DNA of 23,466 bases, from positions 1-23,466 of IMG/VR virus record IMGVR_UViG_3300020428_002533. The stretch is one strand, 5' to 3'. Under the pieces are notes generated by a model. It was not told where the DNA came from. It did not search any database and saw only the letters and a list, made by a program, of their open reading frames with translations. A program made the translations under genes and the position numbers. Source of the stretch: a virus. Each line of letters begins with the position of its first letter. The stretch's first letter is position 1. Below are positions 434 through 23,297 of this stretch, piece after piece.

Positions 434-771
434 AGCGTCCTCAAAAATTCTTTCCTGCTAAGGCTAAAAACGATATCGGTCTCCCCCCGGGTGACTCGGA
501 TCACCCTGCCTGCCACGTATATCCTCGAATGGTCGAGAGCTCGATACACGATACGCTCATGGTCGCTGCTCTTGTCCAAGAGGATCACGCGGATCCTTCC
601 CTTAGGGGGAGGGTCACACTTCCCACACCTCCCTCTGAGGCGGGGGCCGTTGCACCTCGAACATCTATCCCTCACGCGCATTCGAGCGCAAGAGTCACAG
701 ATACCCCTAAGCCTTCGCTTAAATGACTTCTCCCCCTCCATTGCCGTGCAGTGGTGGCAGCACCTACTCAC
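427..771 (-). CDS. Four-knuckle zinc-binding protein
   Basis: This 114-residue protein carries four CxxC pairs in its first half (Cys5/8, 25/28, 37/40, 49/52), enough for two zinc ribbons. Many arginines and lysines lie between them, suggesting nucleic acid binding. The second half (about residues 58-114) lacks cysteines until the penultimate region and looks like a small beta-rich domain. The start overlaps the stop of the RuvC-like gene as ATGA. Phages often encode small zinc-ribbon proteins near replication genes as regulators or replication accessories. I infer DNA or RNA binding but cannot assign a specific role. Confidence 0.65.
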   Translation of the reverse strand: MSRCCHHCTAMEGEKSFKRRLRGICDSCARMRVRDRCSRCNGPRLRGRCGKCDPPPKGRIRVILLDKSSDHERIVYRALDHSRIYVAGRVIRVTRGETDIVFSLSRKEFLRTLC

Positions 772-1352: not shown

Positions 1353-1518
1353 TGTAAGCCTCCAGCGTTTCTATGTCTCCGTCCCACCAGGCCACAAACA
1401 AATCGTTCTTAACCTTGGGGTTCAAGGTCCGCCAGCAGAATGCGCAGCAGACCTTATTATCGGGTATCTCGGCAAAACAGATTAGGCACTCTGTTGGCGG
1501 CTCGAAGGGGATTTCCAT
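1333..1518 (-). CDS. Small zinc-ribbon protein
   Basis: This 61-residue protein has CLIC (Cys11/14) and CAFC (Cys25/28, with an extra Cys24), a spacing typical of a compact zinc ribbon. The remainder is short and acidic to neutral (WWDGDIETLEAYSARYRC). The start ATG at 1518 lies 37 bases inside the polymerase 3' end and the end overlaps the resolvase start by 20 bases, so it is embedded in an overlapping operon. It may help the polymerase or resolvase bind DNA, but that is only a guess from position. The cysteine pattern makes a chance frame unlikely. Confidence 0.6.
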   Translation of the reverse strand: MEIPFEPPTECLICFAEIPDNKVCCAFCWRTLNPKVKNDLFVAWWDGDIETLEAYSARYRC

Positions 1519-3452
1519 GGTACGAGTTCTCCGTTCTCAAACACCGGCTCGGCGCGCTTATCCCAGCGTTCCATAAGGGCAGCCTCTACCCGGATCGCCG
1601 TGTTATTCAAACTGCTAAGCACTTCCTTCATTGCGTTTTCCATGATCAGGATAACGACCTTCGCATACAAGGATGCTTTGTCTTTGGGCACCTCCAAGAG
1701 CACCTCGTCATGGATCGAGGCAATGAACCTTGAGCCCTCTAGGCTCCCTGTGTCGTAAATATTCTTGCACAGCTCGAACGTCGCGAGCTTCATTCCTTCC
1801 GCGCCTGGAGTCTGGAGGCCCCTTCCGTTCATGTATTGGGTATACGTGCAGCCGACGCGCTTCATGCCGCCAAAGCTGCTCGTGTACTCGAACTCTTCCC
1901 CTTCCCCCGCTAAGTAGTCCTCCATAACTGGGTAGGTTCTAAGCCAAGTGTCCCTCAGCGCTTCTGCCTTGTCCTCGTCGATACGCACCCCGTATCCCGC
2001 GCACGCCTTGACCATGGTCTTAAGCCCCATGCCCCCGGGGAATCCCAGCCCTACGGGCTTCGCTAGGGTCCTCCAATGCTTAAAGTAGACGGGGTCCGTG
2101 GCGCGCTTGCGCCGAAACTCTTCGTAGGTCTCGCCCGCTAACACTGCCCCCAGGTAAGTATGGGGGTCGATCCCTTGGTTAAGCTGCTCGCGGAGCTTGC
2201 TATACCTGTGCTCCTTGTAAGCCACGTCCGCCAGGCAGCACAACTCCAGCGCCGAATAGTCCGCGCTCAAAAAGTAGTAACCCGGGCGAGGGACGTAGCA
2301 TCCCCGCACGCGGGGGTCTACTTGCTGAATGTTTACCGAGGGGTAAAGGGGGTTCTTCTTCTTGCTGCTGTTACCCCAGCTACTGATCCTACCCGTCCGC
2401 TTCAGAGGGTCATACTGAGGAAAGATCGTGTCCGCGATCCACTCTGACCCCCGGGGCCAAGCCATAGCCGGGAAGTAGGTGGTAACCAACTTCGCGATAC
2501 TTTGCCGCTTGACGTATTGCTTAATGGTCTCGTCGTAGACGCTGAGATCCTCCATGAAGGTCTTCGCCGTAGACACCCTGCCGGTCTCTGTGATCTGGAG
2601 CTTGATCTTCTCCCGCTCGCAGACCTTTATGATATGGGGCATAAGCCCGTGCTTCTGGTTGACCCTTTCTGGCTTGGGCTTGGTGAACTTGTTGGGGTTC
2701 TTCTTGTAGGGCTTGCCGGGGCACGCTGGGGTAATGATCCCCTTCTCCACCAGGAGGGGGAAGTTGCTCAGCTTCATTTCTTGAGTCGCCTTGGCCTTGA
2801 GCTCCCTCACGCGGAGCTTGTCTACCATGAGCCCCGTCGTGGTGCTGAAGTAGAGACAGAAGGCATTATTGACGTGAAGGCTTTCAGGCTTAAAGAGCTT
2901 CAGCGGCCCGCCGGTCTCTTCTTGCTGGTCGTAGATATCGAGGGTGGTCCTGCTGTCCATCAGCGCGTAGTCCTTAAATTCGCGGGGGTAGTCCCGGAAA
3001 GAGACCCCGTCCATCTCGTCGTAGCGCACGCGGACGGTGCTCTTGTCCAGCTCGCGGATTTTGCGGAAGGCCGCTATCCCCGCTAGGCTATAGCTGAGGG
3101 GTTGAGCGGCTAAGAAGTCCAGGGAGCCGTGGACCCCCAGGTTTATGAGCTTCTCCCGAATAGCTGTATCATGGACCCTGCCCTGGCTGTAGGCTTCCCA
3201 GACCCTACGGCTAAGCCCGGGGAAGGTGTTGAGCAAACAATGGAAGTCGAAGGCGACGTTATGACCGACGAAATGTACCTTGTCGTCGAGCATGGCCTTA
3301 AACTGATCGAAGAGGTCTCGCCCCTTGTTGTTGTTCCCTACTCCCCACCCGTTAAGGCCGCTTGCAAACGTGCTGCAAACAACTTTAGGGGCAAGGTCGC
3401 CGGGTTTAATGGGGTAAGTTTCAACGTCAAACGCAATAACAACGGGTCTCAT
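1482..3452 (-). CDS. polA: Family A DNA polymerase with proofreading domain
   Basis: This 656-residue replicative polymerase has an intact 3'-5' exonuclease domain: Exo I FDVET (Asp9, Glu11), Exo II NVAFD (Asp69) and Exo III YALMD (Tyr162, Asp166). The polymerase domain follows, with TGR at 353-355, motif A DYSALEL (Asp398, Glu403), motif B RTLAKPVGLGFPGG (Arg461, Lys465) and motif C HDE (581-583). The 5'-3' nuclease of bacterial Pol I is absent, as in T7-type enzymes. Motif B is unusual: Leu469 occupies the place of E. coli Phe762, and Gly473 that of Tyr766. The ATG at 3452 follows AAGGAGTGT and is the first gene of the leftward operon. A 7-bp stem could enclose this ribosome site. Confidence 0.95.
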   Translation of the reverse strand: MRPVVIAFDVETYPIKPGDLAPKVVCSTFASGLNGWGVGNNNKGRDLFDQFKAMLDDKVHFVGHNVAFDFHCLLNTFPGLSRRVWEAYSQGRVHDTAIREKLINLGVHGSLDFLAAQPLSYSLAGIAAFRKIRELDKSTVRVRYDEMDGVSFRDYPREFKDYALMDSRTTLDIYDQQEETGGPLKLFKPESLHVNNAFCLYFSTTTGLMVDKLRVRELKAKATQEMKLSNFPLLVEKGIITPACPGKPYKKNPNKFTKPKPERVNQKHGLMPHIIKVCEREKIKLQITETGRVSTAKTFMEDLSVYDETIKQYVKRQSIAKLVTTYFPAMAWPRGSEWIADTIFPQYDPLKRTGRISSWGNSSKKKNPLYPSVNIQQVDPRVRGCYVPRPGYYFLSADYSALELCCLADVAYKEHRYSKLREQLNQGIDPHTYLGAVLAGETYEEFRRKRATDPVYFKHWRTLAKPVGLGFPGGMGLKTMVKACAGYGVRIDEDKAEALRDTWLRTYPVMEDYLAGEGEEFEYTSSFGGMKRVGCTYTQYMNGRGLQTPGAEGMKLATFELCKNIYDTGSLEGSRFIASIHDEVLLEVPKDKASLYAKVVILIMENAMKEVLSSLNNTAIRVEAALMERWDKRAEPVFENGELVPWKSPSSRQQSA

Positions 3453-3525
3453 ATCACACTCCTTGTAGTTAGAGACCCCATAATGCTACCATAGGGAGGC
3501 TGTCATGGCAAAGGAGTGTAAAACT
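3444..3525. promoter_or_regulatory. Divergent control region for polymerase and primase-helicase
   Basis: On the minus strand TTGCCA (3511-3506), a 17-base spacer and TAGCAT (3488-3483) form a credible sigma-70-type promoter for the polymerase. The plus strand offers only weaker candidates, such as TTGTAG to TACCAT with 18 bases. Both genes carry the same ribosome-site string, so AAGGAGTGT appears as an inverted pair (3456-3464 minus, 3511-3519 plus). GGGTCTC (3444-3450) and GAGACCC (3472-3478) can pair around the polymerase ribosome site, placing the start codon at the stem edge. The control function is inferred. Confidence 0.55.
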
Positions 3526-5934
3526 ATGAGAGTTCAGTGTTTCAAGGGGGTCCGTGTCAGGGCTGCCGCAACGTGGGAAGACTGGCCTAAGCGCCAGAAG
3601 TCAACAATTATGAGCCTGGGGGACGTTTGGACTAAGCGCCACGACGTTGACCTTATGATCGCCCGTTACGTGGTGCGTAGCGAGGGGGAAGTGATCCCCG
3701 CGCCGCGGCTGAAGAAGAGGAGTGAGGTATTCAACTCCTTAGCGGCGCAAGGGTATTCTATCGAGTGTCCTATTCTTATCGGGGATATCGACGAGCCGGG
3801 GCTGGCTAAAGACGCCACCATGAGCCGGGAGTTCCAGGCAAACACCGCGGCGCTGATACGTCGCCACGCTAAGGAGCTGGGGATCTATTCTGCCTGCGCG
3901 ACTCGTGGGGGGTTTCATGTTCTCTGGGTGTTCAGCGACCCGGTTAGCCCCGCTGAGAGCGAGGAGATTTACAAGGAGCTGAGCAGGAAGGCTAAGGCGC
4001 TGGGGATCGAGTTCGACCCCGCGTGTAAGGACTGGACCCGTTTAGTCCGTGCTCCCGACGTGAAGAGAGGGGAATACCAGACGGGGGAGATGGCTCATTA
4101 CTGCAAGGTCACCTTCAGGCACATGCTGACCCCTCCCCAGGTCGATATAGCGCCTGAGCTTGTTACTCAAGTAAGCCACGACGCCCCTGCGCCTGAGGAG
4201 GTTGATCCTCAGTGGCGTGAGGTGCTGGTGAGCCTCTTGAGGAGGGATCCTCATTCGGGCTTGGGATACGCTAGAGAGGCTCTCCTCTTCGGCACCGAAA
4301 CTTTCGGCGACCGGGGAGGCTCCCGGCATAACAATATGAGGAATATCCTCGGGTGGTTGGTGAACTTCGCCAGCACCAGGGGCCTTGAGTATTCACCCGA
4401 ACTCTTCTTTAACCTCCTAGCGGAGAAGGCGGATCAATGCCGCGTAGAGGGAGAGGAGCGGGACATGGTTAATGAGCTGTGGCGGCTCTGCGAATGGGTC
4501 TGCCACGCGCAAGAGAGATCGGACGCGGAACTAATGCAAGACGCCCCTGAAGAAGAACAGCCCGAAGGCGAACCGCTCCCTCTGGAGAGGGCCGCGCTGG
4601 TCTATTCGGGGGCCTTCTACCTCTTGAGGCAAGACGGTAACTACACTCAGAAGCCCGTCGCTAAAGAGTCCCTCTTCGGCGAGCTGAGGGCTCTAGGAAT
4701 GGAGAACGCCGCGCCTACTACCTACACCGATACCCGGGGCAACTTGAAGTCTCACGGGAAGGTGGAATGGCTCAACAGGTATTGCCTCACGCTCCACCAG
4801 TTTCGCTACGGAACTCACGAGGGGCATTCGCTCTATTCGGAGGCTGACGGTATCCGCTCTATGAGTGTCCCTCTTTACGCGAGGACTAAGCTAACGCCTC
4901 TGGAGCCCAACGCGGCTATTAGCGGCTGGCTGGATCTGATCGAGAAGGAGGTCACCAACGGGGGGCTTTTCAAATTACATTTAGCCCACCTCCCTAGCTA
5001 CTGGCACGCGCCCTGCGCGGCTATGGGGCTCAAGTGGCCTACGGGGGCGGGCAAGAGCCTCCTCCTCGACGCCATACGCCAGCTCGTTCACGAGGGGGTT
5101 ATCGGTGGCGCGAGCTGCTACGGGGGGTTTCAGGATCACTTGCTGAAGACGCCCTACTTGCTGGTAGACGAAGGATTCAGCCGGGTCTACTCCAGCGATA
5201 ACATTTCAGACCGCTTCAAGGAGTATGCGACCGGGGGGTCTCTGACCGTGAACCCCAAGGGGAAACCGGAGGTCTCTATCCGCGGGGTCTACCCTCGACA
5301 GGTGTTCGCCTGTGAGAGCGTTGACCTGTTTACTTCGCTCTTTGCCTCTGGTAACAAGTCCGAAGAGAGCCTCGAAGCCATGGGGCACAGAATCCGCATG
5401 TATGAGACGCCCTCGAAGAAGGTTGGGGAATACCTTCGCTCGATAGGGGGCGAGGAGACCACGCGGCGCTGGACCGACCCTCGAAACCCCCTCTTGACCC
5501 GGGCAATTTTGTGGTTGGCAGAGAAGGCTCGGGAGGGGGGAACGCTTCACCCTACCGACTGCCGTTTCGGAGTCCCCGCCGCTGAGTTCAGTGGTATCGA
5601 GGGCGCTCTGGTGACTCAGAGCAGCTCGCGGATCATGGACCACGCCCTAGCGCTCATGGTTCATTACGACAGAGAAGATTATTGGTGGGAGGAGAAGGAA
5701 TCTTACTTCTTCGAGACCGAGGAGGTCTTCGAGTTCATTAAGAAGTCGAGCTTTCTTCGCCTTTACCAGCAGTGCCGCTCGTGGACTACTAAGGAGGTCA
5801 AGCGGGAGCTCGTAAGGAAAGGCCCCAACATACGAAGGAGCAAGGGGAGGCGGCGTAGCAGCGGATACCTCGTGGCTCCAGCCAATATCGAATACAGGGT
5901 CAAGCCCGGGGGAGTTCGAGTAGATGAGGATTAG
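3526..5934 (+). CDS. AEP-type primase fused to SF3-like helicase
   Basis: The first half resembles archaeo-eukaryotic primases: PILIGDIDE supplies the DxD (Asp87, Asp89), GGFHVLW the SxH-type motif (His131) and DWTRLVRAPD the Arg-containing third motif (about 169-177). A PriCT-like linker follows (GGSRHNNMRNILGWLVN, about 264-280). The helicase half has WPTGAGKS as Walker A (Lys510, Ser511), LLVDE as Walker B (Asp548, Glu549) and HRIRM as a likely arginine finger (about 621-625). Such fusions prime DNA and unwind the fork. The Walker A has Trp where Gly is usual. An upstream ATG at 3505 with AGGGAGG is also possible; I chose 3526 because it carries the recurring GGAGTGT start module. Residue numbers use that start (802 residues). 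Confidence 0.85.
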   Translation: MRVQCFKGVRVRAAATWEDWPKRQKSTIMSLGDVWTKRHDVDLMIARYVVRSEGEVIPAPRLKKRSEVFNSLAAQGYSIECPILIGDIDEPGLAKDATMSREFQANTAALIRRHAKELGIYSACATRGGFHVLWVFSDPVSPAESEEIYKELSRKAKALGIEFDPACKDWTRLVRAPDVKRGEYQTGEMAHYCKVTFRHMLTPPQVDIAPELVTQVSHDAPAPEEVDPQWREVLVSLLRRDPHSGLGYAREALLFGTETFGDRGGSRHNNMRNILGWLVNFASTRGLEYSPELFFNLLAEKADQCRVEGEERDMVNELWRLCEWVCHAQERSDAELMQDAPEEEQPEGEPLPLERAALVYSGAFYLLRQDGNYTQKPVAKESLFGELRALGMENAAPTTYTDTRGNLKSHGKVEWLNRYCLTLHQFRYGTHEGHSLYSEADGIRSMSVPLYARTKLTPLEPNAAISGWLDLIEKEVTNGGLFKLHLAHLPSYWHAPCAAMGLKWPTGAGKSLLLDAIRQLVHEGVIGGASCYGGFQDHLLKTPYLLVDEGFSRVYSSDNISDRFKEYATGGSLTVNPKGKPEVSIRGVYPRQVFACESVDLFTSLFASGNKSEESLEAMGHRIRMYETPSKKVGEYLRSIGGEETTRRWTDPRNPLLTRAILWLAEKAREGGTLHPTDCRFGVPAAEFSGIEGALVTQSSSRIMDHALALMVHYDREDYWWEEKESYFFETEEVFEFIKKSSFLRLYQQCRSWTTKEVKRELVRKGPNIRRSKGRRRSSGYLVAPANIEYRVKPGGVRVDED

Positions 5935-7003
5935 CGCAAGCCAGATAAAGGAGTGGTCGCTGTGCCAAAAGAAATGGTATTTCAACAAGGTCTTGAAGCT
6001 CGATGGCGGGGGGAGTGGCTACGGCGCGACCTTTGGCTCCGTTGTGCATGGAGTGTTAGAAAACTTGCACCAGGGGAAGGATCTTTACCCTCTAGGCTGG
6101 GATCGAAACCTTCAAAGCGGTCACGGGGAACTCGCTCAAGCGCTCGTCGCTAAGTATCAGGAGGAGGTCAAAGAGATAGACCCCCAAGGGATCGAGAGCT
6201 ACTTCAAGCTCCCGGTTATCGAGGGGGTTGAGCTGATCGGCTACGTGGACCTTTGGAATAAAGATTCAGTCGTGGATCACAAGACGACGGGGAACCTTAA
6301 GTATGCGCTCGACGCTAAAGAGCTGGCGAGCGACACGCAAATGCTTATCTACGCGTATGCCCTTAAGGCCCTAGCGGGGGACATTCCCCCTCTGGTATCT
6401 TTGAAACACAACGTGTTTCTGAGGAAGTCTCCAGCTAAGGTTAAGACGACTCAGGCATACGCAACCAGGGAGGCTATCGAAGAACAATGGGAAACGACCA
6501 AGAAGATCGCGGAGGAAATGAAGGCGGCTTCGGAAGCGGAGGAAGCCCCGAAAGTAAGCATGGGCGGCCAGTGCCAAGCATACGGGGGCTGTCCCTACGC
6601 TGGGGTCTGCGCTGGGGCTTTGAGTTTGAGCCGCTTCCCCCGGCGCAAGATATCTAAACCAACCAAGGAGGTAATAGTGCCTCCTGTTTCAAAGGAGTGT
6701 TTGAGTATGAGTGGATTGACGTTGTATATCGGCTGCACCCCTATCAAGGGGGACGTGGAGACCATGACCTTGGACGAGGTTATGACCGTGATCCTCGCGG
6801 GGACAGGGGATAACCTTATGAAGTATCAATCTGCCGATACTTGGCATCGCCGAGACGCCCTGGTCGTGCAAGCTCAGCAGTGGGCCGCTCAAATGAGCTG
6901 CGCTGTGGTGGTCCCCGCGCGAGAAACCCTCGACGGTGACGAGAAGTCCCTTCTTCGGGGGCTCTATTCCGCCGCGAAGTTCACTATCGAGCCGCTAGGG
7001 TAA
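5924..7003 (+). CDS. Cas4/RecB-like PD-(D/E)XK nuclease with probable Fe-S cluster
   Basis: The first 240 residues fit the RecB/Cas4-type nuclease superfamily: FGSVVHGVLE (His42), GYVDLW (Asp109), VVDHKTTG (Asp118, Lys120) and DTQMLIYAYAL (Gln139, Tyr143) follow the family order. Four cysteines, one near the N-terminus (Cys14) and three clustered as QCQAYGGCPYAGVC (217, 223, 229), match the 4Fe-4S arrangement of Cas4 and AddB. No cas genes are near, so a role in phage end-processing or recombination is likelier. The start overlaps the primase-helicase stop by 11 bases. The last 98 residues look like a separate unit with its own ribosome site (see the nested gene at 6707). Confidence 0.85.
   Translation: MRISASQIKEWSLCQKKWYFNKVLKLDGGGSGYGATFGSVVHGVLENLHQGKDLYPLGWDRNLQSGHGELAQALVAKYQEEVKEIDPQGIESYFKLPVIEGVELIGYVDLWNKDSVVDHKTTGNLKYALDAKELASDTQMLIYAYALKALAGDIPPLVSLKHNVFLRKSPAKVKTTQAYATREAIEEQWETTKKIAEEMKAASEAEEAPKVSMGGQCQAYGGCPYAGVCAGALSLSRFPRRKISKPTKEVIVPPVSKECLSMSGLTLYIGCTPIKGDVETMTLDEVMTVILAGTGDNLMKYQSADTWHRRDALVVQAQQWAAQMSCAVVVPARETLDGDEKSLLRGLYSAAKFTIEPLG
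6666..6709 (+). promoter_or_regulatory. Internal translation start signals within nuclease gene
   Basis: Two ribosome-site and start-codon pairs lie in tandem inside the nuclease reading frame: AAGGAGG followed after five bases by GTG at 6677, and AAAGGAGTGT followed after six bases by ATG at 6707. The first is inside a perfect inverted repeat, AGGAGG (6666-6671) and CCTCCT (6680-6685), with an 8-base loop. The second matches the module found at five other gene starts in this window. Both starts are in frame with the nuclease. Confidence 0.6.
6707..7003 (+). CDS. Nested in-frame gene: separate C-terminal protein of nuclease ORF (candidate)
   Basis: ATG at 6707 follows AAAGGAGTGT by six bases and opens a 98-residue product (MSGLTLYIGCTPIKGDVET...) in the same frame as the nuclease. 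Its first bases, ATGAGTGGAT, are the same as at the independent gene at 7448, and the upstream signal is also shared, so this looks like a true gene start. The linker before it (about residues 238-261 of the long product) has no obvious fold. The protein has a short beta-like start and a helical C-terminal half (RRDALVVQAQQWAAQ); no family is recognised. It could be made alone, as the tail of the nuclease, or both. Confidence 0.5.
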   Translation: MSGLTLYIGCTPIKGDVETMTLDEVMTVILAGTGDNLMKYQSADTWHRRDALVVQAQQWAAQMSCAVVVPARETLDGDEKSLLRGLYSAAKFTIEPLG

Positions 7004-7006
7004 ATC

Positions 7007-7390
7007 ATGCCACGGGTGAGCCTGCTCCGAGTAGACATAAACGGGCGCTATACCGAAGTTCCCGGGACTCAGCGGGAGCGTGACGTGCTCCTGGCTCTGG
7101 AGCGTGGCGCGTCCGTGGTCCGTCGTGGGGGACCTGGCCCGGCCCGAAAGGGATCGGGGAGGCCCCCTGCGCGGGTGTGTGTATCCGAGGGGGGAGTATC
7201 TTGGCGCTGTGCGGGGTATACCGTAGATATGCTAGTGAGCAAGGGGCTCGTGCAAGCTGAGACACGCTGGAGCAGGCGCGTAAAGGACTGGGATATCGTC
7301 TACAGCCTAGCGCCACACGTTACTCGCGTATATGCCACCAGCTACGCGCACCGACATTCTGTTATTGCGCGAAAATCTCTAGTCCGTTAG
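7007..7390 (+). CDS. Hypothetical protein, possible winged-helix
   Basis: The ATG at 7007 lies three bases after the nuclease stop and has a weak ribosome site (AGGG). The 127-residue product is arginine-rich, with a glycine/proline/arginine linker at about residues 41-55. A segment around residues 64-104 (SWRCAGYTVDMLVSKGLVQ... then WDIVYSLAP) has the helix-helix-wing feel of a small winged-helix DNA-binding domain. This is pattern-based and uncertain. The gene ends exactly where a promoter-like -10 sequence for the next gene begins. Without it there would be a 440-base gap inside a tightly packed operon. Confidence 0.5.
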   Translation: MPRVSLLRVDINGRYTEVPGTQRERDVLLALERGASVVRRGGPGPARKGSGRPPARVCVSEGGVSWRCAGYTVDMLVSKGLVQAETRWSRRVKDWDIVYSLAPHVTRVYATSYAHRHSVIARKSLVR

Positions 7391-7450
7391 ACTGTTCAGC
7401 GGGGAGTGCAAGGGGCACCCCCTGAACAACTAACGGAGTGTATTGATATG
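7365..7450 (+). promoter_or_regulatory. Promoter, inverted repeat and GGAGTGT start module
   Basis: TTGCGC (7365-7370), a 17-base spacer and TAGACT (7388-7393) form a moderate sigma-70-like promoter. An inverted repeat abuts the -10: GTTCAG, a bulged C, GGGG (7394-7404) pairs with CCCC-CTGAAC (7418-7427). Seven bases later comes GGAGTGT (7435-7441), then six bases, then ATG at 7448. The repeat could be an operator overlapping the transcription start or a 5' mRNA hairpin. It has no T-tract, so an ordinary terminator is less likely. Confidence 0.55.
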
Positions 7451-8311
7451 AGTGGATCGTTATTGACTTGGACCGGCACGCGGGAGGTTACCCGCGCTGA
7501 GCTGGAGGAGAATGAGGTGTGCGAGCGCATGGGGGCTCGTCACTTCCCGATTGAGAATTACAAGGCGTTCGACGCCATGAAGAAGAAGCTGGAGAGCTCC
7601 AACTTCGAGATCACGAAGAAAAAAATTGTAGTCAAGGGGGAGGGCCTACAGGACATGTGGGCTATGTTCTGGGTTCGGCATAAAAAGCTGGACCAGTTGA
7701 ATCAGATCCTCGACCCGGTTCATGCTGTTGATCACCAGATATTCGTCAGCCGTAGCACGCGCCAAAAGGCTACTGACGACGGCTTTGGGGGCATGAACAT
7801 GCACTGCTGCTCTAACGGGCAGATCAGCAACGCGAGCCTCCTCACCAGCAAAAAACAGACGACATTCTACGGATTAGAGGCGGCGTATGAGGAGGCTGTC
7901 TCCAAATACATTGGGCTCCAAGAAGGGGCGGTAAATCGCCTCAAGCAATCCTTCGATATCTCGCTTAGCGACCTGGACCGAAAGCTCTTGGTCTATCGAG
8001 AGGCTTTCCTCCCCACCAACCCCGAAGCGATCGCTGATGTGCTCGACAAGGACGGGAACGTGATCCGGAAGGGGCAAGCCCCTCGTTTCGCAGTCCCCGC
8101 CGCTTGGGGGCGTAAGGTCGAGGCAATCCTCGCCGACCCCCAGGGGGAGGACGTTGACGGGGATTCAATGGGACACCTCTACGGGGCGTGGAGTCGTCTC
8201 TGCCGGGAGGAGACCCCCACGCAAACGAACATTGCTCGCCTGCGCCACTTCGGCGGGCGCTACCTGGAGCGCTCCGAGGCGACGCTCAGGGAGGTGCAAG
8301 CGTGGAATTAG
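7448..8311 (+). CDS. Hypothetical protein, loosely DUF932-like
   Basis: The frame is open from 7406, but ATG at 7448 is preferred because it sits six bases after GGAGTGT and shares ATGAGTGGAT with the nested start at 6707. The product has 287 residues. Its middle (FVSRSTRQKATDDGFGGMNMHCCSNGQIS, then a helical stretch) recalls the strand-turn-CxN segment of DUF932 phage/plasmid proteins, whose role is poorly known. The resemblance is weak and I hold it loosely. There is no signal peptide or membrane segment. The position next to replication genes with its own promoter-like module suggests an early DNA-related function. Confidence 0.75.
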   Translation: MSGSLLTWTGTREVTRAELEENEVCERMGARHFPIENYKAFDAMKKKLESSNFEITKKKIVVKGEGLQDMWAMFWVRHKKLDQLNQILDPVHAVDHQIFVSRSTRQKATDDGFGGMNMHCCSNGQISNASLLTSKKQTTFYGLEAAYEEAVSKYIGLQEGAVNRLKQSFDISLSDLDRKLLVYREAFLPTNPEAIADVLDKDGNVIRKGQAPRFAVPAAWGRKVEAILADPQGEDVDGDSMGHLYGAWSRLCREETPTQTNIARLRHFGGRYLERSEATLREVQAWN

Positions 8312-8652
8312 TCTCAGACGACTTGGGCACCAAGGTCGCCTACGCGACGGGGAGCCTTGAGGTCCTAGTGGATCGCGCCTTGGATCGAATCTTCTGCTCG
8401 CTAGGCGGGGGCGCGGGCGAAGAACTCCTCGTTATCCTCGATACGATCCTTGAGGAACCCGAAGACGCCAAGCCTGCGAACTTCCGGCACGAGGCGTACT
8501 TGGAGCTTTTGAAGCTGGGGCTCCTCTGCACTGAGGGGGGCTACATAACCACCCGAAGTTTGATCGGCGTTAAGGAGCTGAAAAAGGCCGCGCTGAAGTC
8601 GCAGGTCTTAATGGAGCAAGTGAGGCTCGAAATGCGGCCCACCAAGGACTAG
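8302..8652 (+). CDS. Hypothetical protein (116 aa)
   Basis: I start this gene at GTG 8302, which has AGGGAGG seven bases upstream and overlaps the previous gene by 10 bases. An upstream ATG in the same frame (8188) would put 114 bases deep inside the preceding gene and is less likely. The product (MELVSDDLGTKVAYATGSLEVLVDRAL...) is mostly helical and acidic in the first part, more basic near the end (KELKKAALKSQVLM). A short helix-turn-helix-like region (LLKLGLLCTEGGYITTRSLIG) is visible, but no family is recognised. It is the last gene before a strong terminator. Confidence 0.65.
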   Translation: MELVSDDLGTKVAYATGSLEVLVDRALDRIFCSLGGGAGEELLVILDTILEEPEDAKPANFRHEAYLELLKLGLLCTEGGYITTRSLIGVKELKKAALKSQVLMEQVRLEMRPTKD

Positions 8653-8660
8653 CTACCCCT

Positions 8661-8690
8661 GGCCCTCGCCTAGTGCGGGGGCCTTTTTTT
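8661..8690 (+). terminator. Rho-independent terminator
   Basis: A 9-bp stem (GGCCCTCGC at 8661-8669 with GCGGGGGCC at 8675-8683, one T-G wobble) has the 5-base loop CTAGT and is followed by seven T residues (8684-8690). It lies nine bases after the stop of the 8302 gene and should end the primase-helicase transcript. Confidence 0.92.
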
Positions 8691-8712
8691 ATGTACGGAG
8701 AAAATTGTCGTT

Positions 8713-8964
8713 ATGAGAAATTACGGAGCGTGGCCTTTTCATATCCAGACGGGGCTCACCGAGCAGGAGCAGCAAAACCTACTAGATCTAGTGGCGGCGC
8801 TAAGCAATAGCCCTAAATATGGGGCTTTTCGGAATACCCGACCGGGGGCTATACGCTTCATGTGTAGGGTCGTAGCCCCTCAAGTCGTGGCGCAGCTCGA
8901 AGCCGATACGCTACGCCGGAGCGCTCCAGGCAGGGATATCCCCCTAGGCTTTTCGGGGCTCTAA
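8713..8964 (+). CDS. Hypothetical protein (83 aa)
   Basis: The ATG at 8713 is the first start after the terminator. The closest ribosome-like site (GGAG at 8697-8700) is 12 bases upstream, rather far, but the start is again ATGAG. The product is a small soluble protein with a predicted helix (LTEQEQQNLLDLVAALSN) and no recognisable family. Its TAA overlaps the ATG of the SNF2-like helicase by one base, so the two are probably translated together. It may be a helicase partner, but only the coupling supports that. Confidence 0.6.
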   Translation: MRNYGAWPFHIQTGLTEQEQQNLLDLVAALSNSPKYGAFRNTRPGAIRFMCRVVAPQVVAQLEADTLRRSAPGRDIPLGFSGL

Positions 8965-10781
8965 TGAGCGTAATGCAGAGGGAGAGGGCTCGAATCTTGG
9001 ACCTCCCTCGGCACGATGGCCCCACGCCAGCAGAGGCCGAGGAAATTCAAGAGAGATACTGCACGCCCGGGGCGGGGGGCTCACTCCTCCCCGGGCAGGT
9101 CTACGCTATGTGGGAATGGCAAGAGAGGCGCGAGCTGAGATCGGGGCTCCTCGTCTCCCTGGGCGTTGGCGAGGGCAAGAGCCTCGTAGCCATGTTGGTC
9201 GCTAGTGAGTGGCATCTTCAGTACAGCACTAACAGCATGATCCTCATTCCCGCGGCGCTTCACCGTCAGCTCTGGACTCAACATATCCCCTGGGCGCGAG
9301 AGCGCTTCGCTGTCACCTGCCCGGTCGTCGCCATGGGGGGCAAACCAAAAAAAGTACGAGCTGCGCTCGCGAAAGGGGCTCGGGGGTGTTTCCTCATGCC
9401 CTATTCGCTGCTGAGTCAGCCTGACGGTAGGGATCTTCTGGAATGGATCGACCCCGATCTAGTGATCGCGGACGAGGCTCATTTGCTTCGCTCGGGGACT
9501 AGCGCTAGGACGCGGCGCTTCTGGGATTGGGCGAGGGCGAGGGACCGTCCCCCGGTGGGGGTCGCTATGTCGGGGACGCTCACCACGCGAAGCCTGCTCG
9601 ACTACTGGGAGCTAGGGAAATGGGCGCTGGGTGAGGACGTGCCCTACCCCCGGCATATCAGAGGCGCTGAGATATGGGCGAGCGCCCTAGATAGCGACCG
9701 TAGCCGTTGGATCCCCCACCAAGCCGCTAGAGAAATGAGGGGCTTGTTGCCTTGGGCTCAGGTCCAGAAGGGCCCGGGGAGGATTCAGCGAGAGGCAATT
9801 CAGCGAGCATACGCCGTGAGGCTCCGCTCCGCGCCTGGCTATGTGCCCCCGGGCGAAGGCTCGATCCCCACGGGGCTGGTGATCTCGAACCGAGAGGTCC
9901 CCGATCCTCCTTCTGAGCTGCTGGGCATGATTCGCGAGATCGAGGAGGACTGGATAGACCCTGACGGGGACGCTATTACCACTGCACTACAGAAGCACGC
10001 GAGGATCATGGAGCTCAGCGCTGGGATCTACCTCCGGCGAGTGTGGCCGGATCGCCCTGGCGTAGCTCAAGCTCGGGCCGCGTGGGAAGCCGAGCAAGAA
10101 TGGCTCAAGGCTCATGGTAGATGGGTAAGGAGTCGCCGGGTGCTGCCTAGAGGTCTCGATACCCCTGGAACAGCCCACGCCGCTATGGAGGAGGGCCGCG
10201 GGGGGCTCCCTGAGGATATCGAAGAGCTGTGGTGGCAGTGGCAAGAAGCGCAGCGGGCAGTCCCCGAAGGTGCCCCGGGGAGGGAAATAGAGGTCGTGAG
10301 GGTCAGCCCCTATAAGGTGGACGCTGCGGTCAAATGGCTCAGCGGGCGCGCTGGGATCATTTGGGTCTGGCATACCGCGCTAGGGGATTGGGTAGAGGAG
10401 CGACTTCGGGAGACAGACGTGCCGGTGCTTCGGAAGGCCGCCGGGGATACGTGGCTTCGAGGCGACGGGAGCCATAAATACGCGGTCGTAGCGAGTATCA
10501 GCGCCCACGGGACGGGTCGCGACCTACAGGACCACGGGAGGCAGTTCGTCATGCAGTGGCCCCGCTCGGGGCAGGTCATGGAGCAGCTACTAGGGCGCGT
10601 GCATAGGACGGGGCAAGAGAGAGACACGCTAGAGGTGAGGACTTGCCTGTCTACGGGGAGTGAAATAGCTTTGGCGCGGGACTGTTACCGGGATACAATG
10701 TATTCAGCGCGGACCATGGGGGGCTCGCGCAAACTTTTGCTGGCGGACTACGATCCGCCTTTGTTCACGTCAGAGAGGTAA
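8964..10781 (+). CDS. SNF2-like superfamily 2 helicase/translocase
   Basis: This 605-residue ATPase carries the superfamily 2 motifs in order: motif I LGVGEGKS (Lys72, Ser73), motif II DEAH (170-173), motif III SGT (203-205) and motif VI QLLGRVHRTGQ (541-551), the last strongly SNF2-like. Between the two RecA-like lobes lies a tryptophan- and arginine-rich insertion (about residues 360-430). Phage SNF2-like enzymes are thought to translocate on or remodel duplex DNA during replication or recombination. It is translationally coupled to the small 8713 gene and followed by a probable ssDNA-binding-type gene. No separate ring helicase was found besides the primase-helicase. Confidence 0.9.
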   Translation: MSVMQRERARILDLPRHDGPTPAEAEEIQERYCTPGAGGSLLPGQVYAMWEWQERRELRSGLLVSLGVGEGKSLVAMLVASEWHLQYSTNSMILIPAALHRQLWTQHIPWARERFAVTCPVVAMGGKPKKVRAALAKGARGCFLMPYSLLSQPDGRDLLEWIDPDLVIADEAHLLRSGTSARTRRFWDWARARDRPPVGVAMSGTLTTRSLLDYWELGKWALGEDVPYPRHIRGAEIWASALDSDRSRWIPHQAAREMRGLLPWAQVQKGPGRIQREAIQRAYAVRLRSAPGYVPPGEGSIPTGLVISNREVPDPPSELLGMIREIEEDWIDPDGDAITTALQKHARIMELSAGIYLRRVWPDRPGVAQARAAWEAEQEWLKAHGRWVRSRRVLPRGLDTPGTAHAAMEEGRGGLPEDIEELWWQWQEAQRAVPEGAPGREIEVVRVSPYKVDAAVKWLSGRAGIIWVWHTALGDWVEERLRETDVPVLRKAAGDTWLRGDGSHKYAVVASISAHGTGRDLQDHGRQFVMQWPRSGQVMEQLLGRVHRTGQERDTLEVRTCLSTGSEIALARDCYRDTMYSARTMGGSRKLLLADYDPPLFTSER

Positions 10782-10789
10782 GTGGTAAA

Positions 10790-11359
10790 ATGGGAAGAAG
10801 TAAAAAAACGGTAGCGGTGGAGGCTGATCCCACTGAGGCGCTTGACGAGGCGATCCTCAAGGGAATGTTTGAGGCAATGCCCAAGAGGGTGAGCCGGAAG
10901 GTGCTCGCTGAGAAGGACCTCACGGCGGGGGATTACATTCTCCAGATCACAGGCCGGGCGGTTGTCCCTAAGCTGGAGCCCAATGTTCCCCGCCTAGGGC
11001 CTAGTTACCAGAAGTTTGGGTTAAGGGTGCTTGAGGTCGTGGACGGGAACGAGGAGAGCCTCCAGGCGGGGGACGAGACCTTTAGCATGTGGTCTAACGT
11101 CCCCAAGCAACTGGGGTTCTTCTACGATCATATCCAAGCGCTGGCGCTTTACGCCCTGGGGTACGATCAGGAGAAGTGCGCGGGGGCGGATTGGGCCAAG
11201 CTGCTGCAAGCAGGAGTATTCGACGGGGCGATCTTCCGGGGGGCCGCGGCGCGAAGCTGGACCAACAGCAAGGGTCAGGTCCGTTTCAACCTGGATGTCG
11301 TCAAGGTGAAGGTGGATCCCGAAGAGCTTAGCCCTGAGGCGAAGCGTTACGTCATGTAA
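10790..11359 (+). CDS. Putative ssDNA-binding-type replication protein
   Basis: The 189-residue product starts nine bases after the SNF2 stop. After a charged N-terminus (GRSKKTVAVEADPTEA...) it has a beta-rich core (LTAGDYILQITGRAVVPKL..., FGLRVLEVVDG, DETFSMWSNV) and a helical segment, then a final strand (QVRFNLDVVKVKVD). The 'aGdY...I...' opening and two-part beta layout resemble phage OB-fold or DUF669-type proteins found next to replication enzymes. This is a fold-level impression supported by context; I see no diagnostic motif. The gene is followed by a terminator and the repeat-rich region. Confidence 0.5.
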   Translation: MGRSKKTVAVEADPTEALDEAILKGMFEAMPKRVSRKVLAEKDLTAGDYILQITGRAVVPKLEPNVPRLGPSYQKFGLRVLEVVDGNEESLQAGDETFSMWSNVPKQLGFFYDHIQALALYALGYDQEKCAGADWAKLLQAGVFDGAIFRGAAARSWTNSKGQVRFNLDVVKVKVDPEELSPEAKRYVM

Positions 11360-11388
11360 CACCTGAGGGTGGAGAATAATTTCGCGAG

Positions 11389-11432
11389 CGGAGAAAAATA
11401 TTCTTCTCCGGGGGGCCTATTAGGCCCCTTTT
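11389..11432 (+). terminator. Double hairpin with terminator
   Basis: The first hairpin pairs CGGAGAA (11389-11395) with TTCTCCG (11404-11410). The second pairs GGGGCC (11412-11417) with GGCCCC (11423-11428) around TATTA and is followed by TTTT and then more T after CTCG. The second has the form of a rho-independent terminator for the SNF2/ssDNA-binding transcript. Confidence 0.75.
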
Positions 11433-11447
11433 CTCGTTTTTAGGGGG

Positions 11448-11578
11448 AAAAATAGGGAAAAGTCGCTGAGAAATAGGGGCTTATTTGCTTATTTAAGGAA
11501 ATAAGGGCTTATTTTTGGGGGACTTTTCCTTATTTTTGGAGACTTTTCCCTTATTTTCTGGGCGATTTGGGCTTATTT
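11448..11578. repeat. Helically phased CTTATTT iterons with inverted copies
   Basis: CTTATTT occurs at 11480, 11488, 11508, 11529, 11550 and 11572. The last five are 20, 21, 21 and 22 bases apart, about two helical turns. Inverted forms appear at 11450 and 11471 (AAATAGG, 21 apart) and 11499 (AAATAAG). ACTTTTCCCT (11542) has an exact inverted copy at 11454-11463 and a near copy at 11522. This spacing suits side-by-side binding of an initiator or regulator on one DNA face. Confidence 0.8.
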
Positions 11579-11699
11579 GGGGCCGCGGAGAAAAATCGGG
11601 CTCGAATTGCCACCACCTAAAAAAATTATTCTCCGCCTAAGAGTAGATACGCTAGGAGGTTACCGGAAATCCATATATTTTAGTCAAAAACCTACATCA

Positions 11700-11713
11700 T
11701 GTGCGCGCGCACA
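11700..11713. repeat. Perfect 14-bp alternating purine-pyrimidine palindrome
   Basis: TGTGCGCGCGCACA is self-complementary and alternates purine and pyrimidine throughout, the classic Z-DNA-prone composition. A GC-only stretch (CGCGGGCGGGCGCGC) follows. Function is unknown; it may be a structural element or a protein site in the candidate origin. Confidence 0.7.
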
Positions 11714-11815
11714 CGCGGGCGGGCGCGCAAGGCTAAATATTTTTCTCCGGTGGCAGCAGCGGATTTTGGGGCGGGGTAGGTCTCACTCGCGGTGTTACAG
11801 GAAGAGACACCCTCA

Positions 11816-11867
11816 GCGGTGAGGCGAGGAGGCGAGGAGGCGAGGCGGCGCGGTGAGGCGAGGAGGC
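11816..11867. repeat. Purine-rich tandem repeats
   Basis: An 18-base string (GCGGTGAGGCGAGGAGGC) occurs at 11816-11833 and 11850-11867. Between and within the copies the 8-base unit GGCGAGGA/C is repeated in tandem at 11823, 11831 and 11839. The strand is nearly all G and A with scattered C. CCCTCAGCGG is also repeated at 11810 and 11892. Confidence 0.8.
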
Positions 11868-11914
11868 CAGGGGAGGTTTCGGGTCAGCCACCCCTCAGCG
11901 GCTTTTGCTTCGGA

Positions 11915-11952
11915 GGGGGCCCGGGGGAGGGCGCTAGGGGCTGGGGCGGGGG
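11915..11952 (+). other. Potential G-quadruplex motif
   Basis: Six runs of three to five G (11915-11919, 11923-11927, 11929-11931, 11937-11940, 11943-11946, 11948-11952) lie within 38 bases, separated by one to five bases. This satisfies the usual G-quadruplex pattern several times over. It lies about 50 bases before the candidate promoter of the 12050 gene. Confidence 0.7.
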
Positions 11953-12001
11953 CTATTACTTCTTGTGTTTTTTTGTTGCTTAAAGCGCTCGCTTCGTGCT
12001 C

Positions 12002-12052
12002 TGCTATAGGCTCGGGGGAATTCGCCCTCGTTAATTAGGAGTGTGTTTTATG
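12002..12052 (+). promoter_or_regulatory. Extended -10 promoter, hairpin and GGAGTGT start module
   Basis: TGCTATAGG (12002-12010) resembles an extended -10 element; no good -35 is seen. It is followed by CGGGGG (12013-12018), the loop AATTCG and CCCTCG (12025-12030), a 6-bp stem with one wobble. Seven bases later comes GGAGTGT (12038-12044), then five bases and ATG at 12050. It should drive the four-gene operon to 13390. Confidence 0.5.
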
Positions 12053-12445
12053 AGAAGGAAGCTATCAGGGCCGCGACTTCAGGCGGCCTGGGAGGCGTTT
12101 GTAAGAGCGTTTGAGTGTTGCCCTGAATATGAATGGGAGATTGAACGCATACTGAAGGACGCCCGGCGGCGCTTTAAGGGGCCTGGGGGGCTCCGAGAGG
12201 CAAAGGGGCGCATCATGGAGGATTTTATAGAAGCCTTCGACGCCCCAGAAGAGGTCAAGGTTTCAGCGCTGTTTAATGCGTTCTGGTCTTGTCGCTCTCG
12301 CATAATGGGGGTCCACGCTTCCGAGAGGTTCGACAGGTTACGCGGTGTGTTTTCCCCCCCGACTTGGCTTTGCCAGGCAGAGAGGGACCTAGCCACGGTG
12401 CGCGGAGTTGTCAGGGATTTTAGAGCGCATGAGGTGAGATCGTGA
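12050..12445 (+). CDS. Hypothetical early protein (131 aa)
   Basis: The frame is open from GTG 12041, but that codon lies inside the ribosome-site string; ATG 12050, five bases after GGAGTGT, is the better start. The product is helical and basic at the start (MRRKLSGPRLQAAWEAFVRAF), with three cysteines scattered and no CxxC pair. No family is recognised. It leads a four-gene operon of small proteins joined by ATGA/GTGA overlaps, sitting between the candidate origin and a strong terminator. Phage genes in such positions are often host-takeover or regulatory factors, but nothing in this sequence shows a specific role. Confidence 0.7.
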   Translation: MRRKLSGPRLQAAWEAFVRAFECCPEYEWEIERILKDARRRFKGPGGLREAKGRIMEDFIEAFDAPEEVKVSALFNAFWSCRSRIMGVHASERFDRLRGVFSPPTWLCQAERDLATVRGVVRDFRAHEVRS

Positions 12446-12816
12446 GGGAGACCACGACCAAAGAGGGGAACAAGATCACCAGGTATGGGGTGTATGAGAC
12501 CCCCGCTCAGAACAGGTATTCATTCGACTTTAACGGGGGGAAGCTGTTTCCCTGGTTTGGTCTCCCCTCGGAAGGATGGGAACAATACGATACAGACCAA
12601 GACGCCAGCTACTTTGGGGTGTGGGTCAATCGAGGGGCTAGGGCCACGGTTACTTACGCCGAGGGTGATGTGAGCGTTGTGCGGTGCGCAACGGGTGAGG
12701 AATTCACGCGGGAGCTTAAGAGCATGTCCGATTTCTACGGGGACCCGCCCCCGGCTTTTGTGACTATTGACGACGAAGGGAACGCCACCGCCCACATTCT
12801 CCCGAGGCCAGAATGA
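12442..12816 (+). CDS. Hypothetical protein (124 aa)
   Basis: The GTG at 12442 overlaps the preceding stop as GTGA and has GAGGTGAG about five bases upstream, so translation is probably coupled. The 124-residue product is rich in aromatic residues (YGVYETPAQNRYSFDFNGGKLFPWFG, YFGVWVNRG), likely beta-rich, with an acidic C-terminal half (FVTIDDEGNATAHILPRPE). No signal peptide or membrane segment is visible and I do not recognise a family. Confidence 0.65.
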   Translation: MRETTTKEGNKITRYGVYETPAQNRYSFDFNGGKLFPWFGLPSEGWEQYDTDQDASYFGVWVNRGARATVTYAEGDVSVVRCATGEEFTRELKSMSDFYGDPPPAFVTIDDEGNATAHILPRPE

Positions 12817-13106
12817 GCCGCGCCGAACTTCGACAAGCCCTCGCATCCTGTGTCTGGGCTCAGGAGGACGCCCGCGCCGCGGGGGTTGCCGCCTTCGGCA
12901 TCGGCAACCTAGAAGGGGTCGCCAAGTATGCGGCCCAGCTCGGGAGCTACCGCGCCGCGGCCTATGATCTCGCGGGGGGGATCGAGGGGGCGGGGTTCCC
13001 TTGGAGGACCACACCTAGTTACATGGCGAAATGGTACCGCCACCGCCACCAGGTAGGCAAGCGCGCCGCGCGCGCCTTAGCTAAGTGGAAAGGGGGCGCG
13101 CTATGA
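12813..13106 (+). CDS. Hypothetical alanine-rich protein (97 aa)
   Basis: ATG at 12813 overlaps the previous stop as ATGA. The product is alanine- and arginine-rich and probably all helical (AELRQALASCVWAQEDARAAGVAAF, YAAQLGSYRAAAYDLAGG), ending in a basic segment (YRHRHQVGKRAARALAKWKGG) that could bind nucleic acid. No known family is recognised. It is the third gene of the small-protein operon. Confidence 0.65.
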   Translation: MSRAELRQALASCVWAQEDARAAGVAAFGIGNLEGVAKYAAQLGSYRAAAYDLAGGIEGAGFPWRTTPSYMAKWYRHRHQVGKRAARALAKWKGGAL

Positions 13107-13390
13107 CCGGCGAAGATTCCCCCCCGCCCTTCTTCGTTCTCACCCTGGACGAAGACGAGCTGCGCGCCGCGGAGTTTGCGCGGGGCTATGGATGGGGCTC
13201 TGCTATCGCGGGGCTTGACTCGGGAGCTAACGAGCTGAACGAAGACGAAGCGCGCGCCATCGCGGCGGCGATCGACTCCGACATGGAAGGGGGACATGAC
13301 GCTTTCCCCTGCCTCGATTTCGGCTCCAGGGTGGGCAGTGACTTAGCCGACAAGCTGATGAAGCTCTGGAGACTGGTGAACGAGGACTGA
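13103..13390 (+). CDS. Hypothetical acidic protein (95 aa)
   Basis: ATG at 13103 overlaps the preceding stop as ATGA and follows AAGGGGG by about five bases. A same-frame start at 13085 would sit further inside the upstream gene and is less likely. The product is strongly acidic (LTLDEDELRAAEFARGYGWG, ANELNEDEARAIAAAIDSDMEGG) and helical, contrasting with the basic tail of the upstream protein. Small acidic phage proteins can act as DNA mimics or inhibitors, but that is speculation. It ends 29 bases before a strong terminator. Confidence 0.65.
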   Translation: MTGEDSPPPFFVLTLDEDELRAAEFARGYGWGSAIAGLDSGANELNEDEARAIAAAIDSDMEGGHDAFPCLDFGSRVGSDLADKLMKLWRLVNED

Positions 13391-13419
13391 GGCGCCCTTA
13401 GAAGCCCTCTAATCGAATC

Positions 13420-13455
13420 AGAGCCCCGGGACGCATGACCCGGGGCTCTTTTTTT
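13420..13455 (+). terminator. Strong rho-independent terminator
   Basis: A perfect 11-bp stem, AGAGCCCCGGG (13420-13430) with CCCGGGGCTCT (13439-13449), encloses an 8-base loop and runs into seven T (13449-13455). It should end the operon that starts at 12050. Confidence 0.93.
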
Positions 13456-13468
13456 GTGCAAGCTCAGG

Positions 13469-13558
13469 CGGGCTCTCAGGAGCCCGTACATAGAACGAGC
13501 CCCGGCCTTGAGACCGGGGCTCGTTTGGGGGTGGGGGCTCTACTCGGATTCGAGAGCC
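13469..13558. repeat. Cluster of related GAGCC hairpins
   Basis: Three further stems share GAGCC arms with the terminator before them: CGGGCTC/GAGCCCG (13469-13486, 4-base loop), AACGAGCCCCGG/CCGGGGCTCGTT (13494-13525, 12 bp, 8-base loop) and GGCTCT/AGAGCC (13536-13558). None has a long T-tract. They lie between converging genes and may act as back-up terminators in both directions. Confidence 0.75.
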
Positions 13559-13574
13559 GCTTCCTCAACGGCGC

Positions 13575-13778
13575 TCATGATGTCGCCCTGTAGTGAGGCG
13601 ACCCCAGGACAACGGGAGCATCCCAGTAGTATTTGAAGCCCGCGCCGCTGTAGGCAGCAACAGCGCGCTCTGGCCTTCGCCCGCTCGCTCGGTCCTCAAT
13701 GAACTCCAGACGCCCCGCGCGGGTGTCCAGCTCGAATCCTTGCGCCCTCTGGCGCTCTTGCTCGTGTTCCCAATTCAC
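13575..13778 (-). CDS. Hypothetical small protein, convergent gene (67 aa)
   Basis: The GTG at 13778 lies five bases after GGAGTGT (minus strand 13790-13784), the same start string as the polymerase and primase-helicase, which is the main reason to call this gene. The product begins NWEHEQERQRAQGFELDTRAG and is charged and helical, then becomes more aromatic (GFKYYWDAP). It ends with TGA at 13577-13575. One base out of frame the sequence stays open to 13540 and reads like a normal acidic C-terminus (LQGDIMSAVEEAALESE), so the end may be affected by a frameshift in a GGGG run. No family is recognised. Confidence 0.6.
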   Translation of the reverse strand: MNWEHEQERQRAQGFELDTRAGRLEFIEDRASGRRPERAVAAYSGAGFKYYWDAPVVLGSPHYRATS

Positions 13779-13842
13779 TTAACACACTCCTTGTTGGCTG
13801 GAGAATCCCAGCCCCTACACGCTACCAAATCACCACCGACAA
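13776..13842 (-). promoter_or_regulatory. Promoter-like sequence, hairpin and GGAGTGT start module (minus)
   Basis: On the minus strand TTGTCG (13842-13837), a 17-base spacer and TGTAGG (13819-13814) form a weak promoter. A perfect inverted repeat abuts it: GGCTGG (13813-13808), six bases, CCAGCC (13801-13796). GGAGTGT (13790-13784) and GTG (13778) follow. The order matches the 7365 and 12002 modules. Confidence 0.45.
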
Positions 13843-14287
13843 AAACACTCCCCGGGTCATGCCCGATTCCCTCCCCAGCCGGATGCGGACCCTTGGCGGA
13901 CCTAGGGTCGTTTTGAGCAGGGGACAAGGGGAGCTCTAAGGCATTGGTATACAATCACTTACGAGCAGAACCATGGTCCCCCCTTTCCAAGTGTAAAGGA
14001 TTTATATGCTTTATTGCATACTGAGCCATGGTTTGTCACGCTATGTGCCATGGTTTATTGCATAATGTGCCATGGTTTCAGGCGATGTCAGTGTTTACGG
14101 GGGGGAGGGGCTCCATGCGGTCCGAAACCATACCCCGGTAAGTCACTCTAAAATTTTTACAGGTTCACTTTTCCCTAAATACCCCCCGGACAAAGGTCGC
14201 CTTAGTATCAAAGGAGTTACGTAATCAAAAATTTATAGTGCTAAGGGAGTTGTTGAATTGGGGAGTAAGGGGGGTTAGATTTACCTT
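13779..14287. other. Non-coding control region before late operon
   Basis: No supported gene lies in these 509 bases. They hold the minus-strand module at 13776-13842, a GACCCT/AGGGTC stem (13888-13909), phased CCATGG repeats (14010-14078) and one copy of ACTTTTCCCT (14167-14176), which is shared with the iteron block. TATAGT (14234-14239) could be a -10 element but has no clear -35, so late transcription may need an activator. Confidence 0.6.
14010..14078. repeat. 22-bp-phased GCCATGGTTT repeats
   Basis: GCCATGGTTT starts at 14025, 14047 and 14069, exactly 22 bases apart. A longer 25-base copy (14010-14034 and 14054-14078, starting TTTATTGCATA) matches at 23 positions with a 44-base period. 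A fourth CCATGG is at 13971, and an inverted half-site AAACCAT at 14125. Each core is itself palindromic, as expected for dimer-binding sites. It lies 210 bases before the first late gene. Confidence 0.85.
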
Positions 14288-14656
14288 ATGGACATAGAAG
14301 AACTGGCTAAGATCACAGAGCGCGCTGCGGGCCTAGAGAAGCGCTGTAAGGAGCTAGAATCAAGATATCGATCCATGGAGCGTCGGCTGCAAGAGGCCAA
14401 CCAGGAGCTTAAGAAGACGCAGGAGAGGCTATCTCGCGCCCTTAAAAAACGCCGGGGCGATATTTTGAACGTGGACGACGAGCATCTTCTCTTTAAGGCC
14501 CGAGCGACTTTGGTATTCAACAAGCATATTGGGGGCGGAAGGGCCCTCAACGTGAGGGGGCCTTACCTCCGCGCGTCGTATAGCGCGAACGGGGAGGAGA
14601 AGGGGTCTCTCTTCTCGAAGGCAATGAAGGATCTTCGGACCCGTGGCTGGAAGTAG
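14288..14656 (+). CDS. Coiled-coil protein at head of late operon
   Basis: The ATG at 14288 opens a 122-residue product with a long predicted coiled coil (about residues 2-58, ELAKITERAAGLEKRCKELE and following heptads), then a smaller beta-type domain ending in a basic tail (AMKDLRTRGWK). A G-rich stretch upstream is the only ribosome-site candidate and is rather distant. The gene overlaps the next by 14 bases. A coiled-coil protein two genes before the large terminase could be a small terminase subunit or a structural/regulatory factor; I cannot tell which. Confidence 0.65.
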   Translation: MDIEELAKITERAAGLEKRCKELESRYRSMERRLQEANQELKKTQERLSRALKKRRGDILNVDDEHLLFKARATLVFNKHIGGGRALNVRGPYLRASYSANGEEKGSLFSKAMKDLRTRGWK

Positions 14657-16779: not shown

Positions 16780-16785
16780 GTAACC

Positions 16786-21427: not shown

Positions 21428-21447
21428 TCTAGGAAAGGAAAAATACT

Positions 21448-21948: not shown

Positions 21949-21957
21949 TCCACTCTA

Positions 21958-22001: not shown

Positions 22002-22021
22002 GCTCCCCATGTGGAGGCGCT

Positions 22022-23289: not shown

Positions 23290-23297
23290 GAGGACAC

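Follow-up and report, generated by a model that had tools for sequence, protein, structure and literature searches.

The stretch of DNA analysed here, referred to as the window, comprises 23,466 bases of viral sequence from an uncultivated phage; the record is probably a fragment. It carries, from left to right:

768-1352, minus strand: RuvC-like gene
1482-3452, minus strand: DNA polymerase A
3505/3526-5934, plus strand: DUF5906-like protein (802/809 amino acids)
5924-7003, plus strand: PD-(D/E)XK exonuclease, a 359-amino-acid ORF
8964-10781, plus strand: helicase

The helicase gene is followed by small genes without an assigned function and then by a late block encoding a terminase, a probable portal and the major head protein. 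The portal is named from its place after the terminase and from relatives; it matched no library family. Judged by gene content, the two regions would be expressed early and late, respectively. Rfam and tRNA scans of the window returned nothing. The segment 11360-12049, about 690 bases without coding sequence, has AT-rich and GAGGCG repeats and might be an origin of replication or a control region. Three direct repeats of the TTTATTGCATAATGTGCCATGG type with 22-bp spacing occupy 14006-14078, between the early and late blocks and ahead of the late promoter; they are operator- or iteron-like.

The original prediction listed six places at which GGAGTGT stands shortly before a start codon, five of the starts reading ATGAG. 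All six copies and all five ATGAG starts were found where expected, together with two copies missed earlier, at 6050 (+) and 13851 (-), neither of which is followed by a gene start. The modules and the two additional copies are:

3449..3511, minus strand: polymerase A start module, AAGGAGTGT at 3464-3456, ATGAG at 3452
3511-3483, minus strand: promoter-like site of polymerase A, TTGCCA-17-TAGCAT, with a TG-extended -10 box
3468..3530, plus strand: start module of the divergent DUF5906-like gene, AAGGAGTGT at 3511-3519, ATGAG at 3526; within it, the promoter-like site TTGTAG-18-TACCAT
6666..6711, plus strand: module in the exonuclease ORF, hairpin AGGAGG/CCTCCT at 6666-6685, AAGGAGTGT at 6692-6700, ATGAG at 6707
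7385..7452, plus strand: module of a 287-amino-acid protein without an assigned function, hairpin at 7385-7435, GGAGTGT at 7435-7441, ATGAG at 7448; just upstream, a weak promoter-like TTGCGC-17-TAGACT
12013..12054, plus strand: module of the first gene after the 690 noncoding bases, hairpin CGGGGG/CCCTCG with one G-U pair, AGGAGTGT at 12037-12044, ATGAG at 12050
13776..13813, minus strand: module of a 67-amino-acid ORF, hairpin GGCTGG(A)/(T)CCAGCC, AAGGAGTGT at 13792-13784, GTG at 13778
13845..13866, minus strand: further GGAGTGT (13851-13845) that immediately follows the stem TCGGGCATGACCCGG, with no evident gene start
6050..6056, plus strand: startless GGAGTGT within coding sequence, a chance copy

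The repeated start module is real. The window holds eight copies of GGAGTGT against 2.3 in shuffled sequences (3.5-fold), and none of 100 shuffles reached eight. The arrangement GGAGTGT-N3-6-ATGAG occurs five times, compared with 0.0 in 60 shuffles, and only one shuffle in 60 attained a count of five for its best 7-mer before ATG. The ATGAG start itself is not specific to the module, as it is common at other starts of the window (5924, 8713, 8964, 12813 and 18882). Likeness among the modules ends at GGAGTGT, with nothing shared beyond it; the modules are therefore not simply copies of one duplicated segment, an origin that was considered and rejected.

From the sequence we infer good promoter candidates at 3452 and 3526 and weak ones at the remaining modules. 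At 3468-3511 the polymerase has its promoter-like site opposite that of the DUF5906-like gene, the two pointing towards each other with overlapping -10 boxes. For the latter gene an alternative ATG at 3505 has its own GGGAGG, and ATG 3526 lies in frame, seven codons inside the longest ORF; the promoter-like site would place the transcript start between the two Shine-Dalgarno sequences, favouring ATG 3526. The ATG at 6707 is codon 262, in frame, of the exonuclease ORF, in which the known domain extends no further than residue 229. Measured in bits per codon, the coding signal is 0.41 before dropping to -0.09 across 6620-6706, and it is back at 0.34 from 6707 on; a separate leadered gene that followed, with the ORF running through it, would produce such a pattern. 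It is thus plausible that ATG 6707 is the internal start of a 98-amino-acid product, for which a separate tblastn search of the phage collection gave no match. Alternatively, 5924-7003 may be a gene fusion in which the exonuclease continues in frame into a C-terminal part of 98 residues that is without relatives in the databases.

Inverted repeats had been proposed next to the string at 6666, 7394, 12013 and 13813-13796. Three of these four are convincing and the one at 12013 is weak, the folding z-scores being -2.2 (6666), -3.9 (7385-7435), -0.5 (12013) and -0.6 (13813). The strongest hairpin, at 7385-7435, reaches -26.4 kcal/mol, and its outer stem includes the first G of GGAGTGT; the one at 13813-13796 has a clean stem of 6-7 bp that is unexceptional for its composition. 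At 3452 and 3526 (z-scores of +0.5 and +0.7) no hairpin stands out against shuffles. With convincing hairpins at three of six sites and none outstanding at two, the proposal that the string is often accompanied by an inverted repeat is only moderately supported. A perfect stem of at least six Watson-Crick pairs, 3-16 nt upstream, occurs at two of the six sites compared with 5.1% of random positions, an excess that is suggestive only. The inverted repeats of different modules have no sequence in common.

A pattern scan of viral contigs identified a second phage with the same anatomy, G006 (IMGVR_UViG_3300001605_000014, 98 kb). It contains 26 GGAGTGT-N3-6-ATG sites, all on one strand and spread along the whole record, and most copies of AAGGAG on its minus strand continue with TG. 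In a tblastn comparison of the window proteins with G006 only the DNA polymerase matched, at 26.6% identity, so the two phages share at most one common gene family. Twelve G006 cassettes were sampled and aligned, eleven with GGAGTGT and one with GGAGTGC. They show a sigma70-like promoter with a TTGAC-type -35 box (often TTGACCGGAAGT) and an AT-rich -10 box, then, where the transcript is predicted to begin, a hairpin with a CACCA loop, followed by AAGGAGTG and ATG; a GAACTCAAGTTC palindrome is often present as well. Examples are:

L070:11946-12050, minus strand: G006 cassette
L070:10508-10620, minus strand: G006 cassette
L071:3013-3110, minus strand: G006 cassette

In the consensus stem, five of seven pairs are changed on both sides with pairing retained, that is, the changes are compensatory. 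On average, the upstream folding energy of all AGGAGTG starts in G006 is no different from that of its other AGGAG starts, so the hairpin belongs genuinely to such cassettes without being obligatory. The CACCA-loop hairpin pattern was found in 72 stretches of viral contigs, G006 being the sole contig with more than one, and G006-type cassettes were absent from the other viral contigs scanned.

The suggestion that the module marks early genes only fits the window, where no GGAGTGT occurs from 14288 to 23466. Nevertheless, the string runs along the whole G006 record and is therefore no general early marker, and the contrast within the window has a simpler likely cause. Most late genes of the window overlap within operons, and the first one seems to lack a leader, its upstream site being:

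14259..14290, plus strand: promoter-like TTGAAT-17-TAGATT, its end 6 nt from the ATG (14288) of the first late gene; no module

The first late genes of the window (14288) and of two structural relatives, L007 (3892) and L008 (1545), all have -35 and -10 boxes that end 6-7 nt before the ATG, with promoter scores in the top 0.6-1.2% of ATGs of each sequence; the three encoded proteins differ little in length and show weak similarity. The first late transcript is probably leaderless in all three, and a leaderless mRNA would have no place for a Shine-Dalgarno module. Early leadered and late leaderless transcript classes exist in phage phiYS40 (PMC3594737), which resembles the window in having a late class without leaders and an early class with ribosome-binding leaders. 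It differs in its Thermus host and in the experimental demonstration of its leaderless middle and late transcripts, compared with the promoter position that points to leaderlessness in the window.

Relatives of the window were collected by terminase, portal or capsid homology (L004, L006-L016). GGAGTGT-ATG was found 0 times in 166 kb of these structural relatives and MW202816, a count that is not a same-site comparison, as the early genes of the structural relatives are not close homologues of those of the window. Queries with the DNA polymerase and the helicase retrieved no viral contig, a scan of genome contigs gave only distant terminases in Rhizobiales, and none of the searches by polymerase, helicase, terminase, portal or capsid found a relative with a close early region. 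MW202816 does carry polymerase, helicase and exonuclease genes without GGAGTGT, the situation named beforehand as arguing against the module, but at 24-29% identity they are too distant to decide the matter. The early region of L007 (L007:1-1885, minus strand) has a 51-nt cassette of hairpin, U-run and Shine-Dalgarno sequence before five early genes. This cassette differs from GGAGTGT, its hairpin and U-run lie directly upstream of the ribosome site, and two copies contain GAAGGAATGATCGAATG. Lineage-specific recurring start cassettes therefore seem to be usual in this group.

We consider GGAGTGT to be the central element of an expression cassette that recurs at early genes, most of them with leaders, and that resembles the start-associated sequences (SAS) and extended SAS (ESAS) of actinobacteriophages, and we regard this reading as equally likely to prove right or wrong. 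Such a cassette would consist of a promoter, a short 5' leader, an A-rich unstructured gap, the extended Shine-Dalgarno sequence (A/T)AGGAGTGT and a start codon 3-6 nt further on. At some sites the leader would fold into a stem-loop near the 5' end of the transcript. GGAG would recruit the 30S subunit, and the stem-loop, where present, would most likely shield the mRNA from 5'-end-dependent decay and keep the ribosome site open. TGT may be a lineage-specific extension, with the ribosome, S1 or a phage factor as candidate readers. The late operon would do without the module, its first mRNA being probably leaderless and its other genes translationally coupled. Against the cassette stand the hairpins, convincing at only half of the sites and, in G006, not reflected in stronger average folding upstream of AGGAGTG starts, and the promoters of the window, which are weak except at 3452 and 3526. 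Of the explanations offered in the original prediction, a shared 5' leader element finds support in the anatomy of the modules and in G006.

The most serious alternative, improbable on balance yet not lightly dismissed, is an ordinary strong Shine-Dalgarno sequence: GGAG would be selected at genes with leaders, and TGT would reflect codon or spacer bias and chance, without any special function. The sites are few, GGAG at 3-6 nt spacing is a standard ribosome-binding site, and the hairpins are weak at half of the sites. Bulged G-U pairing accounts for NGU at most, although at the polymerase start GGAG-U-GUGAU might extend its contact with the 16S tail across a single bulge. However, TGT is invariant at all six module sites. 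The claim that simple anti-Shine-Dalgarno pairing does not explain TGT holds in a neutral context, in which UGU comes 28th of the 64 triplets after AAGGAG when pairing with standard 16S tails is scored, and NGU variants tie; pairing as the sole cause is unsupported there. AGGAG-N3-N3-6-ATG sites carry TGT in four of six cases in the window, compared with none of 73 in loci not chosen by the pattern. The density of GGAGTGT-N3-6-ATG is 213 per Mb in the window, compared with 8.7 per Mb across 70 viral loci unrelated to it (Poisson P ~2e-6), and the extension recurs in G006. An ordinary bacterial ribosome-binding site was rejected because the string is rare among the 200 Pseudomonadota genomes sampled: AAGGAGTGT-N3-6-ATG occurs 0-8 times per genome among the matches listed, so the TGT extension is no general habit in Pseudomonadota, the only phylum sampled.

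A more far-reaching version of the cassette reading is rather unlikely. It holds that AAGGAGTG(T), in combination with 5' hairpins (the CACCA loop in G006), is a start signal of phages without other clear kinship and has a reader different from the anti-Shine-Dalgarno, so that the leadered early genes would be switched as a set and the leaderless late operon translated by another route. Joint shut-off of the early genes by a phage RNA-binding repressor or a Shine-Dalgarno-cutting RNase that reads GGAGTGT is unlikely too. Its model is T4 RegB, which cuts GGAG in early Shine-Dalgarno sites and spares late ones (PMC3014915); as there, GGAG stands at early translation starts of the window and is unused by the late genes, to the extent that the whole string is confined to early genes. 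However, a strong RegB site depends on A-rich surroundings, GGAGRAYARAA, and this pattern had no match in the window with one mismatch allowed, and no RegB homologue or other such nuclease was found among the proteins scanned of this fragmentary record. The spread of the string along the whole of G006, which matches the window proteins in the DNA polymerase only, is a further argument against shared early shut-off. Finally, a DNA-level operator, in which a protein controlling transcription from early promoters would bind the inverted repeats and GGAGTGT, as has been suggested for the ESAS inverted repeats, finds a parallel in Adephagia, whose ESAS combine SigA-like promoters with an inverted repeat (PMC11373665), and in the overlapping divergent promoters, but is highly improbable and unsupported because the repeats share no sequence, GGAGTGT is asymmetric and always points toward the start codon, and 3452 and 3526 have no outstanding hairpin.

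Returning to the cassette reading, several known systems offer parallels. Hairpins at the 5' end stabilise mRNA in the bla, papA and aprE leaders (reviewed in PMC3997798). These also place a stem-loop upstream of an open ribosome site, but each is an individual host leader, whereas the phage cassette is repeated and has a fixed ribosome-binding string. The module appears best compared with the SAS and ESAS of Cluster K and EF actinobacteriophages (PMC3203893, PMC7302621, PMC11373665), although by sequence it is not a member. In Cluster K, too, a conserved sequence with AGGAG is repeated at the ribosome-binding position immediately upstream of starts, its conservation exceeds anti-Shine-Dalgarno pairing as that of TGT does in the window, and at a subset of sites an inverted repeat lies just upstream; for the promoter in the upstream part of ESAS, the window offers good candidates at 3452 and 3526 and weak ones at the rest. 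The Cluster K consensus is, however, GGGATAGGAGCCC, which with up to two mismatches has one match in the window (1.3 by chance) and none at the modules. The ESAS inverted repeat is an imperfect one of 17 bp with a shared consensus, in contrast to the unrelated repeats of the window, which also has fewer copies. Microbacterium phages of Cluster EF form an independent group with their own start-associated sequence at the ribosome-binding site and an upstream element (PMC7302621). Their consensus, GGGAAAGGACCCC, has no match in the window with up to two mismatches, and their upstream element is centred on GTAGAG, whereas the window has variable hairpins. SAS have been described in actinobacteriophages since 2011 and are poorly understood; the window adds a further independent set, which suggests, above all with the 26 starts and compensatory stems of G006, that such cassettes arise repeatedly in phages. 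Together they provide a clean basis for comparing ribosomes, RNA decay and a phage regulator as possible targets of the extension.
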